Origin: Methylocaldum szegediense
GTDB lineage: Bacteria > Pseudomonadota > Gammaproteobacteria > Methylococcales > Methylococcaceae
Assembly: GCF_949769195.1 (NCBI RefSeq)
Contig: NZ_OX458333.1
Coordinates: forward strand, 3,539,001 to 3,603,000
Reading direction: 5' to 3'
Length of the DNA stretch: 64,000 bases
Position 1 is the first letter of the stretch. Each line of letters starts with the position of its first letter. Made by a program: the position numbers and the translations under genes. A model generated the notes under the pieces. The model worked only from the letters and a program-made list of their open reading frames with translations. It ran no database searches and was not told the origin of the DNA. Below, in pieces: positions 1,387 through 25,220 of the stretch.

Positions 1387-3942
1387 TCATGCCGGGTTGC
1401 GCACCGTTTGCATCTGTCGGTTTTCGCGCGACTCGGCAAGCGCGTAGCGCCAGGTCAACCCCAAGGAGGTTTGCAGGCTCTTCAGCAGGTCCTGGAGATC
1501 CACGGGCTTGGTGATGAAGTCATCGAAGCCTGATTTGAGGCACATTTCCCGGATGTCGTCGAAGGCGTGCGCCGTTACCGCGATCACCTTGACCTCTTGG
1601 CCGGAATCCATCCGGCGTAGATGCTTCACGGTTTCCGCTCCGTCCATGCCGGGCATCAGGAGATCGACCATGATCAAGTCGGGCCGGAATGTAGCGAGCT
1701 TGTCCAAGCATTCTTTGCCGCTCGAAGCTGTCTCCACGATAAAGTCCAGCGATGCCAAGAGCGCCGATAACATCGCCAGATTATCCGAATTGTCGTCCAC
1801 GATCATGATTCTTCGCGTCTTCCCTTCGTAGCCAATGATCTGGGTATCGTCGACTTCTGATCTCGACGGATTCGACGCCGGCGGCAATGATAGGGAAACC
1901 GTAAAGATGCTGCCTTGGCCAGCCGTGCTTTGCACATCGATCCGCCCGCCCATAGCATCTATCAGCCGCTTACTGATCGCCAATCCCAAGCCTGTCCCTT
2001 CCGTAGAGTCATGATCCGCCAACTGTTCGAACGCGAGAAAGATCCGTTCCATGTCTTTTTCGGCGATTCCGAGCCCGGTATCTTCGATCTGAAAACAGAC
2101 CGTTGTTCCGCGATTGAAGACTTTCAGTGCGGCATAGCCTTTATGCGTAAACTTGATGGCATTGCCCAAGAGATTAATTAGTATCTGCCGTAAACGTTTC
2201 TCATCGCCGAAGACGTATTCGGGTAAAGTCGGCGCTTTTTCATATTTGAATCCGATGCCCTTGCTGGTCGCCCGGAGGTCGAACATTTCGGCAATGCCGT
2301 CAAGAAACTCCGGTAAATGGAAAACCGAATTTTCGATCTCCAATCGTCCCGCTTCTATCTTGGACAAATCGAGCAGATCGTTGATCAACATCAATAGATG
2401 ATGCCCGGAGCGGCTGATATAGTCCAAATATTCACGGTGTTTCGGAGTGATATCGGTCTGTTTTTGAAGTATTTGGGTAAATCCGAGTATTCCGTTCAAA
2501 GGTGTTCTCAGCTCGTGACTGATATTGGCGAGGAACTCAGTTTTCGCCCGATTTGCCGTTTCGGCGGCTTCTTTAGCTTCTTTTAGTGCAAGCTCAGCTT
2601 GCTTGCGCTCCGTGATATCGATACAGGTTCCAATGGCTTCTATCATGTTGCCATCGGAATCCTTGAGCAGCCTGAGCTTATCGTGAAACCAGCGGTACGA
2701 GCCGTCCTTGTGACGAAACCGGTATTGAATCGTCAGCTCACCGTGAGTGAAAAGCTGCTTTAGGTTTTCCAGGGCGGTGGCTCGATCGTCGGGATGAACA
2801 CGGTCAATCCAAAATCTCTCGTCGCGATACCATTGGTGCGGTTCGTAACCGGTAACCCGGGTAATAGTTTCGCCTATGAACTCGACCTTGAATGGCCACT
2901 CCGGATTATCTGTGCGTGAAAGTATGTAAATTACAGAGGGGCTGGTATTCACGATATATTCGAGTCGATGCTGCGACTGCTCCAATTTCTTTTGTTGGGT
3001 GCGCAGTGTGAGCTCCAGTTGCTTGTAGTTCGTGATATCGGTAAATACCGCTTGAATCAATTGTTTTTGATTGAGTTGAATAACTTTCGCGTTGACGCGG
3101 ATATTTCGTACAATACCAGTTTTCGTAATATGCTCCGTTTCGAATATGTCTCCCCCGGTATCTCGAATTTTCTCGATATGCCGTCTGACATCCTCCTCCG
3201 ACTCCTGCCGGTCGATATCGCAGATTCGCAGCTTGCTGAATTCATCTCGGCTGTATTCGAGGTTTTGATAAGCCTTTGGATTGAAGTCGATCAACGCGCC
3301 GCTTTCGATATCCACTAGAAGCAGCGCATCCGGCATTTGCTCGAAAAGGGTACGGTAGCGATTTTCCGATTCGCGCAACGATTCCTCGATACGCCTGCGT
3401 TCCCGGATCTCGTCCTCGAGTTGAGCATTGGCCGCGACCAGTTCCGCCGTACGTTGCTCCACCATCTTTTCCAGATTGGCGTTCAGTCGTCTGATTTCCC
3501 ACTCCTTTCCCTTGCGCTCTTCGATTTCATGCTGCAACCGCCGATTCGCCTCTTCTAGTCTGGCAGGACTCGGGAGTTTGAGTGCATAGGGTATCAGCGG
3601 CCATAAGAGCACCGAGGTCGCGATCGAGACGAGCCCTGTAAACAGCTTGATGACGCCTTCAAGAACATAGTCCGGGCGCCAAAGTGTCCAAATTTCCATT
3701 AAATGCGTAGTCCCGCAGGCGGTGATGAAAATGCCGAAGAGAACGAAGATTCCCCGGAACTCGAGATCCCGGCGCTTGATGACGAAGTAGATGAGTGCGG
3801 CAGGAATGGAGTAATAAGCGGCGGTGATCAGCGAGTCCGACAAAACGTGAAGAAGAAGCAAATCTGATCGCCAGAGCAGACAGTTCCCATGAGGTATAAA
3901 TTCTTTAATGGCCTGAGAACCGAAGAGATTTTGAAAGAACAT
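1387..3942 (-). CDS. Hybrid histidine kinase with ethylene-receptor-like sensor domain
   Basis: An 851-residue hybrid kinase. Residues 1-120 form a three-helix membrane domain closely resembling the plant ETR1 ethylene-binding domain: Asp36, Tyr43, Pro47, Cys76 and His80 correspond in identity and spacing to ETR1 D25, Y32, P36, C65 and H69, the last two being the Cu(I) ligands. A coiled coil (125-190) and two PAS domains (about 190-310 and 325-445) follow. Then come a HisKA H-box with His476 in NISHELRTPLNG, an HATPase domain with GTGLGLAIS, and a C-terminal receiver with VDDN, the acceptor Asp in MVDLLMPGMDG and a late Lys-Pro. Cyanobacteria have similar receptors that bind ethylene. No output gene adjoins it; the ligand here is inferred. 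Confidence 0.85.
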   Translation of the reverse strand: MFFQNLFGSQAIKEFIPHGNCLLWRSDLLLLHVLSDSLITAAYYSIPAALIYFVIKRRDLEFRGIFVLFGIFITACGTTHLMEIWTLWRPDYVLEGVIKLFTGLVSIATSVLLWPLIPYALKLPSPARLEEANRRLQHEIEERKGKEWEIRRLNANLEKMVEQRTAELVAANAQLEDEIRERRRIEESLRESENRYRTLFEQMPDALLLVDIESGALIDFNPKAYQNLEYSRDEFSKLRICDIDRQESEEDVRRHIEKIRDTGGDIFETEHITKTGIVRNIRVNAKVIQLNQKQLIQAVFTDITNYKQLELTLRTQQKKLEQSQHRLEYIVNTSPSVIYILSRTDNPEWPFKVEFIGETITRVTGYEPHQWYRDERFWIDRVHPDDRATALENLKQLFTHGELTIQYRFRHKDGSYRWFHDKLRLLKDSDGNMIEAIGTCIDITERKQAELALKEAKEAAETANRAKTEFLANISHELRTPLNGILGFTQILQKQTDITPKHREYLDYISRSGHHLLMLINDLLDLSKIEAGRLEIENSVFHLPEFLDGIAEMFDLRATSKGIGFKYEKAPTLPEYVFGDEKRLRQILINLLGNAIKFTHKGYAALKVFNRGTTVCFQIEDTGLGIAEKDMERIFLAFEQLADHDSTEGTGLGLAISKRLIDAMGGRIDVQSTAGQGSIFTVSLSLPPASNPSRSEVDDTQIIGYEGKTRRIMIVDDNSDNLAMLSALLASLDFIVETASSGKECLDKLATFRPDLIMVDLLMPGMDGAETVKHLRRMDSGQEVKVIAVTAHAFDDIREMCLKSGFDDFITKPVDLQDLLKSLQTSLGLTWRYALAESRENRQMQTVRNPA

Positions 3943-4021
3943 AAAGGGCTCGCTTGGGGTGAAACTTTACCTGGAACCGTTTCCGGTTCCTGCGATTAAA
4001 TGGAGTGTCTAGGCAAGCCCG

Positions 4022-4489
4022 TCAAGGATTGACCTTTAGGAGTTCCACGTCGAAAATCAACGCCGCGTTAGGCGGAATGACCCGACCCGCCCCACGCGCG
4101 CCGTAAGCCAATTCCGGGGGAATGAAGAAGCGATACTTGGCGCCTTCCTTCATCAGTTGCAAACCTTCGGTCCAGCCGCGAATCACCCCATTTAACGGAA
4201 ATTTAACGTTCTCGCCACGGTCGAACTCCTGACCCGAAATCAGGCTGCCGCGGTAGTTGACGAGTACGGTGTCAGTGGCTTTGGGGGAAATGCCGTTGCC
4301 CTCGTTGAGGACTTGATACTGCAACCCGCTCGGGGTACTTACGATACCGGGTTTTTTCTCGTTTTCGACCAGGAATTTCAAGCTTTCCCGCTTGTGTTTT
4401 TCGGCATCCGCGGATGGCGACGGGGTGCAGGCGGAAAGCCAAAGTAGTACAAGCACGGATGCTCGGGCAAAAAATCCGAGTTTCTTCAT
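4022..4489 (-). CDS. FKBP-type peptidyl-prolyl cis-trans isomerase, lipoprotein
   Basis: A 155-residue protein with a lipoprotein signal: hydrophobic stretch VLVLLWL then lipobox LSAC (Cys21), so it should be lipid-anchored facing the periplasm. After a short charged linker the FKBP fold runs from about residue 50 to the end. It has the typical TPSGLQYQVL entry, VNYRGSLISGQEFD, VIRGWTEGLQLMKEG and the IPPELAYGARG active-site segment, closing with FDVELLKV. This is the FkpA/Mip class of periplasmic folding catalysts without the N-terminal dimerisation helix domain. It stands alone, convergent with nothing and 79 bases from the kinase gene. Confidence 0.9.
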   Translation of the reverse strand: MKKLGFFARASVLVLLWLSACTPSPSADAEKHKRESLKFLVENEKKPGIVSTPSGLQYQVLNEGNGISPKATDTVLVNYRGSLISGQEFDRGENVKFPLNGVIRGWTEGLQLMKEGAKYRFFIPPELAYGARGAGRVIPPNAALIFDVELLKVNP

Positions 4490-4616
4490 TGTGATTTACT
4501 CCATTTTGGATCTGACGGCTGAACCGGACGCGTGTCGTGTCGGGTGCCCCCCTATTAAAAGAAAGAATCGTTAGGAACGGCCAGTGAGCAACGCGTCCGC
4601 CGAGTGAGTCACGTTT

Positions 4617-6494
4617 TTACTCGGCTGGGCTACCATGTGCAAGCATGGCTTCCGGCAAGTTGTCTCCCCGGCGTTCAGCGTAGGGCCGGGCATCGGCTCT
4701 CGTATCCGGAAGAAAGCCTCCGGCCTGCATGGTCCACAATGTGTAGTAAAAGCCTTTTGCCGCGAGCAGCTCCGCGTGATTTCCGTCCTCGACGATACGG
4801 CCCTGGTCGAAGACCAGAATACGGTCCAAGTGCGCGATCGTTGATAGGCGGTGAGCGACGACGATGACCGTTTTCTTGCCCATCAGCTGGTCCAGACTAT
4901 CCTGAATCGCTTTCTCCGTTATTGAGTCGAGACTGGACGTAGCCTCGTCGAGAATTAATATCGGTGGGTCTTTGAGCATGACTCGGGCGATCGCGATACG
5001 TTGCCGCTGACCACCGGACAGTTTGATGCCGCGTTCGCCTACCAGCGAATCGTAGCCGTCTTTTAGCCCTTCGATGAACTCGTGGGCATGTGCCATTCGG
5101 GCGGCAGCGATGATTTCGGCATCGTCGGCGTCGAGGCGGCCGTACCGAATGTTGTCCCGCAGCGATCGATGGAACAGGCTGGGATCTTGTGGAATTAACC
5201 CGCCTTGCTCGTGAAGCGAATCCTGGGTCACCCGGGCGATGTCGGTGCCGTCGATCAAAATTTGACCGCCTTGAGGTTCATAGTACCGGAGGATCAATCC
5301 CACGAAGCTGGATTTTCCCGAGCCCGAGAACCCGACTAACCCAACCCGTTGACCGGGTTGGATGACCACGTTCAATCCGTCGAATACCCACTGCCCGGGC
5401 GTATAGCCGAACCGGACGTCACGGAATTCGATTCGTCCGCGCGTGACGTGCAAAGGCTGAGCGTTCGGCGCATCAACGATGTCATGAGGTTTGACGATGG
5501 TCCTTACGCCGTTACTGACATTGCCTACGTACTCGAAAAACTCCAGAAATCGCCGGCTGAGGTTGCGGGCATCGCCGATGATGAGAAGCGCGAGACCGGC
5601 GCTCATCGAGAAGTCTCCGACATCGATCAAGCCTTGGCCCCAGAGCCTTAAAGCTAAATAAATCGTGCCTACCTTCAAGGTGGCAGCCGAAATGAATTGA
5701 AACCAGCGTACTCGCTCCATGTACCAGAAAGTCCTGCGTCCGGCGTTGACCTCCGTTTCCAGAAAACGGTTCAGATACTCCCGCTCGTGGCGTAGCCGAG
5801 CGAACAATTTGACATTCAGAATATTGGTCACAGAGTCGACGATCTTGCCGTTCACAAGGCTCCGAGTTTCGGCATACGCCTGAGCGTAAGGCCGGCAGCG
5901 CTCGGCCAGCCAGAACGACACGCCTACATAGACCAGCACCCACGCCGCTACGAACCAGCCGAGACTCGTGTGAGTTTTGAAGAGGAGGGTGACCGACACG
6001 GTGAATACCACTCCGATCGGCCAGAAATCGAAGAGCACGGCCCAGACGGTGTGGTTGAGGCTCATGGCCGTCTCCGTGATTCGATGTGCCAAAGCGCCGG
6101 CGAAACGTTCGCTGAAGTAGCGGACGGAATGGTGCTGGAGATAGGCGTAAAGCTTTTGCGTCGTTCGCTGGCGCAAACGGGGGCCCACCATGATAAGACA
6201 TGCGCCGCTGGCTCGGCTGAACAGTATCTCGGCGATATTTAAGGCGGCGAAAATCATCAAAGGAAGGCTTAGGCGCTCTATCGGCGGAACCGAGCCGCCG
6301 TTTGCTTGGGTTACCCCGTCGATGATCTGCCCGATCGCATAGGGTATGAGAATGTTGCTCACCGCCTGACCCGTTTCCAGGGCCAGCATGAACAGAAACC
6401 ATCCGCGAAACCCGGCTATGCAGTGAACAATGAAGCGAAAGGTCGTGTCGGGTAAATCGGGGGCGTCTGCCGCTCGATTAAACGAATGCGTCAT
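4617..6494 (-). CDS. ABC transporter, fused permease and ATPase (MsbA-like exporter)
   Basis: A 625-residue half-transporter of the type IV (MsbA-like) exporter fold. Six membrane helices occupy roughly residues 30-320; the nucleotide-binding domain follows with Walker A GFSGSGKSS, Q-loop LIPQDPSLF, signature LSGGQRQR, Walker B ILILDEATSSLD and the H-loop AHRLSTI. Length and order are normal for a homodimeric exporter. The substrate cannot be told from sequence; related proteins export lipids, peptides or drugs. It is a single-gene unit on the minus strand with no visible co-transcribed membrane-fusion protein. Confidence 0.9.
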   Translation of the reverse strand: MTHSFNRAADAPDLPDTTFRFIVHCIAGFRGWFLFMLALETGQAVSNILIPYAIGQIIDGVTQANGGSVPPIERLSLPLMIFAALNIAEILFSRASGACLIMVGPRLRQRTTQKLYAYLQHHSVRYFSERFAGALAHRITETAMSLNHTVWAVLFDFWPIGVVFTVSVTLLFKTHTSLGWFVAAWVLVYVGVSFWLAERCRPYAQAYAETRSLVNGKIVDSVTNILNVKLFARLRHEREYLNRFLETEVNAGRRTFWYMERVRWFQFISAATLKVGTIYLALRLWGQGLIDVGDFSMSAGLALLIIGDARNLSRRFLEFFEYVGNVSNGVRTIVKPHDIVDAPNAQPLHVTRGRIEFRDVRFGYTPGQWVFDGLNVVIQPGQRVGLVGFSGSGKSSFVGLILRYYEPQGGQILIDGTDIARVTQDSLHEQGGLIPQDPSLFHRSLRDNIRYGRLDADDAEIIAAARMAHAHEFIEGLKDGYDSLVGERGIKLSGGQRQRIAIARVMLKDPPILILDEATSSLDSITEKAIQDSLDQLMGKKTVIVVAHRLSTIAHLDRILVFDQGRIVEDGNHAELLAAKGFYYTLWTMQAGGFLPDTRADARPYAERRGDNLPEAMLAHGSPAE

Positions 6495-24196: not shown

Positions 24197-24254
24197 GCGG
24201 CTTGGACTGCGGAATAGCGAGTGGATGTTCAAGGATGCAGGATACGGATCGTGG

Positions 24255-24325
24255 AGCGGGTGATGGGAATCGAACCCACATTGCAGGCTTGGGAAGCCCG
24301 AGTTCTACCATTGAACTACACCCGC
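24255..24325 (-). tRNA. tRNA-Gly (anticodon CCC), intact
   Basis: A complete 71-nt cloverleaf without encoded CCA. Acceptor GCGGGTG pairs with CACCCGC; the D-arm has GTTCAATGGTAGAAC; the anticodon stem CGGGC/GCCTG encloses the loop TTCCCAA with anticodon CCC; the T-arm has GGTTCGATTCC. It reads GGG codons. It is the downstream member of what was a tandem pair: the upstream copy is cut in its anticodon arm by an intron remnant. Confidence 0.95.
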
Positions 24326-24354
24326 CCAATTCCGTCGGAGATGGACGCATTTCT

Positions 24355-24384
24355 CCCCGAAGGGATGCATCCATCCCCTCGGGG
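24355..24384. other. Strong hairpin between intron remnant and tRNA-Gly
   Basis: Arms CCCCGA and TCGGGG outside, GGGATG and CATCCC inside, with a four-base loop. It could be part of intron domain IV, a processing signal, or a separate palindrome acquired at the deletion point. There is no T-run on the minus strand, so it should not terminate tRNA transcription. Confidence 0.5.
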
Positions 24385-24387
24385 GTT

Positions 24388-25140
24388 AGTTGACAGACCT
24401 ATCTCGCGATAGGCCACCACGCGGAAGTCTGCACCCTTTCGGGTCGGGGCGATCATTTCATCCCCTATCCGGTCCATTACAGACCGGTCTTCGCTTTTTC
24501 CGCGATCCTTTACCCACACAGGCATCAGCAGGCCTTACGGGCTGCTTAGTCCTGTTGCCAGGACGCCTGTATGGGCTTACCACGTTCCGTTAAAGTAGCA
24601 AGAGTCGTTAGGGTTCCGCCTTTCCGCCGGTGGTGTTGTTTGTCAGCGTGCCCTTACCAAGCAGAAGAGCAACCTCACCACATCCCATTTTGGGCAAGCC
24701 TGTCAGTCGCCTTTGGCTTGTTCAGCTTAACGACGTTTAACAGCGGTTCGCGTATGCTAACCCTTAGGCTCTGCCTAGCGCCTCAACCAGGTTGCGACTC
24801 CCAGTATCACACTAGACTCCTCACGGAGTTAGTGTACCCCGTAAGGTGGCTACGTTGTCAGTACGCTTAGCACGAGGTCGTTACCAACCCCGCACCGTAG
24901 TTAGGCTACCGGTGGCTGAACACCGGGTCTTGTCAAATCCTGTGATTTGCAAGACAACTACTTAAACGGCTTTCGCCGCGTTGTCGATAAAAGGCCTACT
25001 TCAGAACCAGAGACATCTTAAAGAACTCTTAAGTTGTGGCTCTGCCACCAGGATTGATTAGGCGTGCTGGTGGAACTTCGGCTGTTTCCCTCATTATAAC
25101 GTTGTGAGGAGGCCAGCTACCGACGCGACTCGTGTCGCAC
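24388..25140 (-). mobile_element. Truncated group II intron (domains I-III and start of IV)
   Basis: The element begins at 25140 (minus strand) with GTGCGAC, the group II GUGYG consensus, directly after a half tRNA. Its RNA-like sequence has the blocks of bacterial group II domain I, including AAACGTCGTTAAGCTGAAC, AAGCCAAAGGC and GGAACGTGG. Candidate EBS1 (24657-24662, GCTTGG) pairs 6/6 with IBS1 CCAAGC at the tRNA end (25141-25146), and candidate EBS2 (24723-24728, AAGCTG) pairs 6/6 with CAGCTT (25148-25153), in the normal order. No reverse transcriptase frame and no domain V hairpin are found, so the intron cannot splice alone. The left boundary is approximate. Confidence 0.85.
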
Positions 25141-25179
25141 GCTTGGGAAGCTGAGGTTCTACCATTGAACTACACCCGC
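25141..25179 (-). pseudogene. 5' half of a tRNA-Gly(CCC), interrupted by the intron
   Basis: Thirty-nine bases identical in layout to the 5' half of tRNA-Gly(CCC): acceptor GCGGGTG, D-arm GTTCAATGGTAGAAC, anticodon 5' stem CTCAGC and loop TTCCCAA, then GC. The next bases expected (TGAG, closing the anticodon stem) are replaced by the intron start. The 3' half is missing. It differs from the intact copy in the anticodon stem (CTCAGC versus TCGGGC), so it was a separate gene, not a recent duplicate. Confidence 0.85.
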
Positions 25180-25190
25180 GAATCGCCTCA

Positions 25191-25220
25191 ATTTTACGCA
25201 TTTTTACGAGTCTTGATCAA
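25191..25220 (-). promoter_or_regulatory. Candidate sigma-70 promoter of the tRNA-Gly locus
   Basis: On the minus strand TTGATC (25220-25215) and TAAAAT (25196-25191) are separated by 18 bases and sit 11 bases upstream of the half tRNA. It would drive the half tRNA, the intron remnant and the intact tRNA in one transcript. Confidence 0.55.

Follow-up and report, generated by a model that had tools for sequence, protein, structure and literature searches.

A group II intron lineage aimed at tRNA-Gly(CCC) and carrying a complete copy of this tRNA

How can an intron settle in a tRNA gene that its host apparently possesses only once? The question is raised by a locus of Methylocaldum szegediense, which lies in a stretch of 64,000 nucleotides (contig NZ_OX458333.1, positions 3,539,001 to 3,603,000; hereafter the window). 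On the minus strand of the window, one half of a tRNA-Gly(CCC) gene runs directly into the remnant of a group II intron, which is followed by an intact tRNA-Gly(CCC). In three congeners this intact tRNA is contained in a full-length intron, and we therefore call it the cargo. We think it quite probable that the window preserves a member of a mobile group II intron lineage that targets tRNA-Gly(CCC), and whose cargo, placed in domain IV, replaces the gene that the intron has broken.

The remnant of the window and its full-length congeners

The 5′ exon is a 39-nt 5′ half of tRNA-Gly(CCC) (tRNA positions 1 to 40) that runs from 25179 to 25141 on the minus strand, as do all features of the element, and extends by two bases into the 3′ side of the anticodon stem. 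Joined to the 3′ exon of a congener, it gives a whole tRNA-Gly(CCC) again. The group II start GUGCGAC follows at once at 25140 and opens an intron remnant of 815 nt (24326 to 25140), which comprises domains I to III and the start of domain IV. A GUGYG start is common to the window and most relatives, the copy of genome G009 being decayed to GUGCAAC. The Rfam model RF02012 (group-II-D1D4-7) matched positions 24779 to 24927 with 104.6 bits (E 6.6e-21; gathering score 34). As read in the sequence, the exon-binding sites EBS1 (GCTTGG, 24657 to 24662) and EBS2 (AAGCTG, 24723 to 24728) each pair 6/6 with the intron-binding sites IBS1 (CCAAGC, 25141 to 25146), which spans two anticodon bases, and IBS2 (CAGCTT, 25148 to 25153); both IBS hexamers fall within the 13 terminal bases of the half tRNA. 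The model of domains V and VI (DV and DVI; RF00029) gave no match in the window at gathering scores and none in the window's genome at E<=10 (150 of the 331 first-look candidates scored), and the reverse transcriptase (RT) of this lineage was not found in this genome at E<=1e-40. A preliminary description of the locus, made from the sequence alone, had already recognized the junction and the paired hexamers, and had taken the element for a group II intron that had lost its RT and domains V and VI; all of this was borne out. The cargo, a complete tRNA-Gly(CCC) according to both ARAGORN and RF00005, occupies positions 24252 to 24325 and is the only uninterrupted tRNA-Gly(CCC) that a pattern search located in the window's genome.

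Three congeners (G001, G002 and G003) have a full-length intron at the same locus, and the remnant is 90-97% identical to these introns over about 800 nt. Their order is the half tRNA, domains I to III, the intact tRNA-Gly(CCC), a gene encoding an RT-maturase-HNH protein, DV, DVI and the other half of the tRNA, the DV-DVI match being located 1.8-1.9 kb downstream on the same strand. Since DV-DVI is present in these congeners and absent from the window, the element of the window is a truncated group II intron. Both the domain I and the DV-DVI models matched in 6/6 loci scanned with Rfam, and RF00005 matched in 5/5 cargo loci scanned. The RT gene of G001 is open over 555 codons and contains RVT_N, RVT_1, GIIM and HNH domains; its product (P0001) scored 379 bits against TIGR04416 (cut-off 300). 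The joined exons of G001 are identical to the tRNA-Gly(CCC) of genome G051 at 74/74 bases. In the window and all three congeners, the locus is flanked by the same glutamate-cysteine-ligase-like gene (Pfam GCS2, 24.6 bits for a cut-off of 21; under the NCBIfam cut-offs). The empty site was found in genomes G024 and G004, where an uninterrupted tRNA-Gly(CCC) stands beside that same gene.

Against each of the three congeners, the window gives one alignment that continues to the end of the cargo and another that begins within the 3′ exon, and the two overlap by exactly 28 nt in each case. This 28-nt repeat (24252 to 24279), common to the cargo and the 3′ exon of the congeners, contains the deletion breakpoint, and its two copies are 1807 bp apart in G001 and 1910 bp apart in G002. 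The simplest account of these alignments is that recombination between the 28-nt repeats would have removed the RT, DV, DVI and the 3′ exon. The loss looks recent because the remnant is 97% identical to G002. Two other arrangements of the window were considered and rejected. Trans-splicing with a 3′ half located elsewhere in the genome was discarded, as no DV-DVI was found there at E<=10 (150 of the 331 candidates scored) and the missing part has simply been deleted; the cargo cannot serve as the 3′ exon of the half tRNA, since on direct reading the two anticodon stems mismatch.

Target specificity and distribution of the lineage

The pairing in the window element alone is only suggestive, because both hexamers occurred in order within 150 nt in 150 of 20,000 mononucleotide shuffles (0.75%); relatives were therefore needed, and the EBS/IBS evidence takes its weight from them. 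An undecayed tRNA-Gly(CCC) 5′ exon was present in 40 of the 42 aligned elements, the exceptions being the copy that G005 has in a helicase-like gene and that of G009, which is decayed. EBS1 is identical in these 40 elements and pairs 6/6 in every one, while EBS2 pairs 6/6 in 18, 5/6 in 19 and 4/6 in 3 (G-U counted as a pair). In some elements EBS2 follows the host stem (AAGCAT with ATGCTT in L120, AAGCTC with GAGCTT in L126); in L094, L097 and L111 it does not. Both junctions were located in 36 elements, and the joined exons were recognized as tRNA-Gly(CCC) by ARAGORN in 35/36, the single miss having masked bases. The 23 unique joined exons keep 386 of 391 stem pairs versus at most 356 in shuffles. 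The mismatched stem seen in several Burkholderiales is a natural allele, which was found uninterrupted in 4 of the 369 sampled genomes. The intron targets the anticodon arm of tRNA-Gly(CCC), and its full-length relatives form a lineage specialized for this gene. Such a lineage had been anticipated in the preliminary description, and its members turned up in the three congeners and in a wider RT clade.

The extent of this clade was derived from a survey in which the RT of G001, compared with species genomes, gave 357 relatives; the best 80 were kept as loci. ARAGORN detected a tRNA-Gly(CCC) in 39 of the 80, every one on the intron strand and all within the 43 loci whose RT identity is at least 61%. 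The four clade loci without a call are L109, which has masked bases inside the tRNA, L130, whose cargo is on another contig of the same genome, and L123 and L125, which retain the 3′ end of an interrupted cargo. No tRNA was detected by ARAGORN in the 37 loci at an RT identity of 60% or less, and inspection by eye of the DV-like site and 3′ flank in 25 of them revealed no tRNA half. An RT tree was built from 42 clade rows (without the broken RT of G002) and 36 others (without one near-duplicate and without the G022 outgroup row). The cargo clade has a support of 100/99 and was recovered in 200/200 bootstrap trees, and the cargo corresponds to a single change on the tree. The tRNA cargo is, or was, present throughout one RT clade, which comprises 43 of the 80 loci.

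The hosts of the clade belong to the Rhodocyclales, Gallionellales, Burkholderiales, Methylococcaceae and Lysobacterales, and many are metagenome bins. Of 369 genomes sampled evenly from the class, 3 contain a pattern of the 5′ junction, each of them with cargo; a longer pattern was found in 4 of 311 genomes of the order, all from the window's genus. A search of plasmids gave 1445 records at E<=1e-100, with 8 records at 60-80% identity; the best 15 of the 1445 records, among the matches listed, were all below 60% identity. On viral contigs, 6 loci were found at 48-56% identity, and ARAGORN detected no tRNA in them.

One copy lies outside any tRNA gene. In G005, an intron carrying the cargo interrupts a gene that resembles a DEAD-box helicase, its two ends being on different contigs (L045, reverse strand, near 3307; L050, 1317). 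The gene name is tentative, as the joined 49 residues scored 24.2 bits for a Pfam cut-off of 26. The EBS2 of this intron is AAGCCC, the helicase-like target sequence resembles the anticodon arm, and the copy is apparently an ectopic insertion. Because this copy also carries the cargo, the cargo travels with the intron. The RT and much of the ribozyme have been lost in the window, in G009 and on contig 106 of G005, and an intact cargo was kept in each; in G009 the 5′ half tRNA has itself decayed.

The cargo as a tRNA and as the sole uninterrupted copy found

All 41 cargos extracted were recognized by ARAGORN as tRNA-Gly(CCC), with a complete cloverleaf and a CCC anticodon. Together with six more, they gave a set of 47 cargos for the analysis of the stems. 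The 31 unique sequences keep 516 of 527 stem pairs versus at most 460 in shuffles, and the anticodon stem shows compensatory changes. Among 12 diverse members, mean identity reaches 86% in the cargo, against 44% in the 74 nt upstream and 63% over the initial 150 nt of the RT gene. The cargo of full-length relatives is located between domain III and the RT gene. The distance from its end to the RT start codon, measured in 41 loci, is 14-34 nt, with 25 loci at 17 nt, and a GGAGG that resembles a ribosome site lies in between. The consensus fold around domain IV revealed no clear basal stem.

Compared with its own joined exons, the cargo was identical in 0/32 cases of equal length (median 63/74). 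In several Rhodocyclales loci the cargo type differs from the type of the host gene, so that the cargo came with the element or was exchanged. Total EBS pairing is better with the exon than with the cargo in 31 of 39 elements, equal in 4 and reversed in 4. The pair 29:41 is A-U in 33/35 exons versus 6/39 cargos (21/23 versus 10/31 for unique sequences). Immunity of the cargo to its own intron was rejected as a rule and is a tendency only. The cargo never has the stem of its own exons (0/35 determined); the shuffle mean is only 0.58, and this count is thus no evidence by itself.

We also searched 20 named carrier genomes for an uninterrupted CCC anticodon loop with a T loop, a pattern that tRNAs with another T loop escape. 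The tRNA found was the cargo at the intron in 18/20 genomes and, in G686, a cargo on another contig. Genome G685 has a further tRNA-Gly(CCC) beside a cargo that is cut after its T-stem. Two extra matches (G684 and G686) are not tRNAs by ARAGORN. Apart from the cargo, no uninterrupted tRNA-Gly(CCC) was detected in 19/20 carriers. A second pattern applied to members of the window's family (G000, G005 and G009) likewise finds only the cargo uninterrupted, G005 and G009 being 93-94% complete. The preliminary description had supposed protection by tandem tRNA copies. This has to be revised: since no other uninterrupted copy was found in 19/20 carriers, protection travels with the intron.

The interrupted cargos have features of their own. 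In L224 (genome G685, Thauera propionica; 2140-4657), the cargo is cut after GGGTTC and is followed by a second whole tRNA-Gly(CCC) and by a gene of the phage-integrase family (Pfam PF00589, 61.5 bits); in L125, the 3′ end of the cargo is found again some 22 kb further, ahead of the RT. The arrangement in G685 and L125 is read as an integrative island that has entered the tRNA of the intron and brought its own tRNA copy. As in L125, the 3′ end of a cargo precedes the RT after unrelated sequence in L123 (1-510), where the contig ends nearby; this is perhaps a second island in a cargo tRNA.

Proposed function of the cargo and relation to known elements

The intron inserts after position 40 of tRNA-Gly(CCC), EBS1 and EBS2 reading the anticodon arm of the target, and insertion breaks the apparently only tRNA-Gly(CCC) gene of the host. 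The cargo shares the strand, and presumably the transcript, of the broken gene; located just upstream of the RT-maturase-HNH gene, it would supply the tRNA by ordinary tRNA end processing, whether the intron is spliced or not, and splicing would regenerate a second tRNA by joining the exons. The host would benefit from this supply, and the lineage is presumably still mobile. In the window, the deletion between the 3′ end of the cargo and the 3′ exon would have taken away the RT, DV, DVI and the 3′ half of the tRNA, so that no intact copy other than the cargo was found.

Several points weigh against this replacement. The RT gene is broken in G002 by an insert of about 110 bp and in G003 by stops. 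A tRNA-Gly(UCC) is present in five of the six Methylococcaceae carriers (the five examined, the sixth being G002), and such a tRNA could read GGG by the established wobble rules; because it is present, the need for a replacement may be mild, and the cargo helpful rather than vital. The shuffle tests for stem pairs take no account of relatedness. The 3′ end of the intron, usually AY, is CC in 24/36 and AC in 12/36, the 3′ site being fixed by the tRNA. Moreover, splicing and cargo expression are predictions from the DNA sequence, and release of the cargo would be expected to cut the intron RNA. Cargo processing and splicing on the same RNA may be compatible, because domain IV is where natural trans-splicing introns are mostly divided, according to a review (PMC4424553). 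A bolder proposal, which we put forward tentatively and hold to be rather unlikely, is that cargo excision splits the intron at domain IV and acts as a switch between a spare tRNA and splicing or homing, together with natural trans-splicing between the two intron halves in bacteria; hosts would also come to depend on the tRNA of the intron, which would keep remnants such as that of the window in the genome.

Other explanations of the cargo fare less well. The short spacing between the cargo and the RT start, with GGAGG in between, would suit a cargo that is mainly a processing device: cleavage at the tRNA ends would liberate the RT message and sever or release the intron RNA within domain IV, and the supply of tRNA would be secondary. 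Any tRNA would serve this purpose, yet the cargo is the isoacceptor of the broken gene in 41/41 cases extracted, and partly deleted copies without RT still hold it intact, which makes this role improbable. The single origin on the tree would also be expected of a passive hitchhiker, in which case a tandem copy of tRNA-Gly was captured a single time in an ancestor and has been carried without function since. We give still less credit to this possibility, given that the cargo is far better conserved than its flank, shows compensatory stem changes, is kept where the intron decays and is the sole uninterrupted copy in 19/20 genomes. Finally, the intact tRNA of the window had first been described as an independent tandem gene outside a truncated intron, as it indeed appears within the window alone. 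An intact tRNA-Gly(CCC) does follow the half tRNA, but in the three congeners it is followed by DV-DVI and the 3′ half tRNA, which places it inside the intron, and the cargo is present in the copy outside any tRNA gene; a tandem gene is thus extremely improbable.

The intron-borne copy of the target tRNA also sets this lineage apart from known elements. It resembles mobile bacterial group II introns with an RT-maturase-HNH protein (TIGR04416; RF02012, RF00029) in domain I, DV-DVI, the GUGCG start, EBS/IBS and the RT domains, and differs from them by its fixed tRNA-Gly(CCC) target and the complete copy of this target in domain IV. By predicted structure and protein the element is a group II intron, and on these comparisons the fixed tRNA target and the cargo are what is new. 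Genomic islands integrate into tRNA genes and restore them, their DNA integrases restoring a tRNA end. The present element would likewise repair the tRNA gene that it enters, but it is an RNA retroelement that brings a complete additional tRNA gene. According to the 2015 review (PMC4424553), bacterial group II introns are mostly located outside housekeeping genes, and trans-splicing in bacteria had not been reported. TeI4h of Thermosynechococcus elongatus is a bacterial group II intron in a single-copy tRNA-Ile(CAU) gene with good EBS/IBS pairing (PMC2882425). It shares the insertion in a single-copy tRNA gene, but is one intron and not a tRNA-specialized lineage, and the available part of this source does not mention an internal tRNA. 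The chloroplast trnK intron with MatK is also a group II intron in a tRNA gene, but it is organellar and has a degenerate RT, and a tRNA cargo is not mentioned in the corresponding part of PMC4424553. In fungal mitochondria, tRNA genes also occur inside introns, of atp6 and cox1 (PMC7902536); since these introns sit in protein genes, their tRNA is not a copy of the interrupted gene. Our searches of an open-access library turned up no group II intron that carries the tRNA it targets. A retroelement equipped with a replacement for the broken gene would make it understandable that such elements can establish themselves in a single-copy RNA gene. It would also show how a selfish element may end up as the only source of one of the cell's RNAs, and it is a concrete starting point in the search for bacterial trans-splicing.

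Some observations concern individual loci. The distribution of CC ends among the 36 introns tracks host groups. In G002, the repeat of about 110 bp is present inside the RT gene and again downstream in the opposite orientation (L042, about 4150-4260 and 5810-5920) and looks like a small non-autonomous mobile element. In G016 (L087 and L088), the Gly(CCC) gene lies between Tyr and Thr genes and Gly(UCC) elsewhere, the reverse of the other family members seen. Upstream of the 5′ exon of the window, a candidate promoter of the original tRNA gene (25191 to 25220, minus strand), proposed from its consensus match only, consists of TTGATC and TAAAAT separated by 18 nt; both hexamers and their spacing are identical in G001 and G002.
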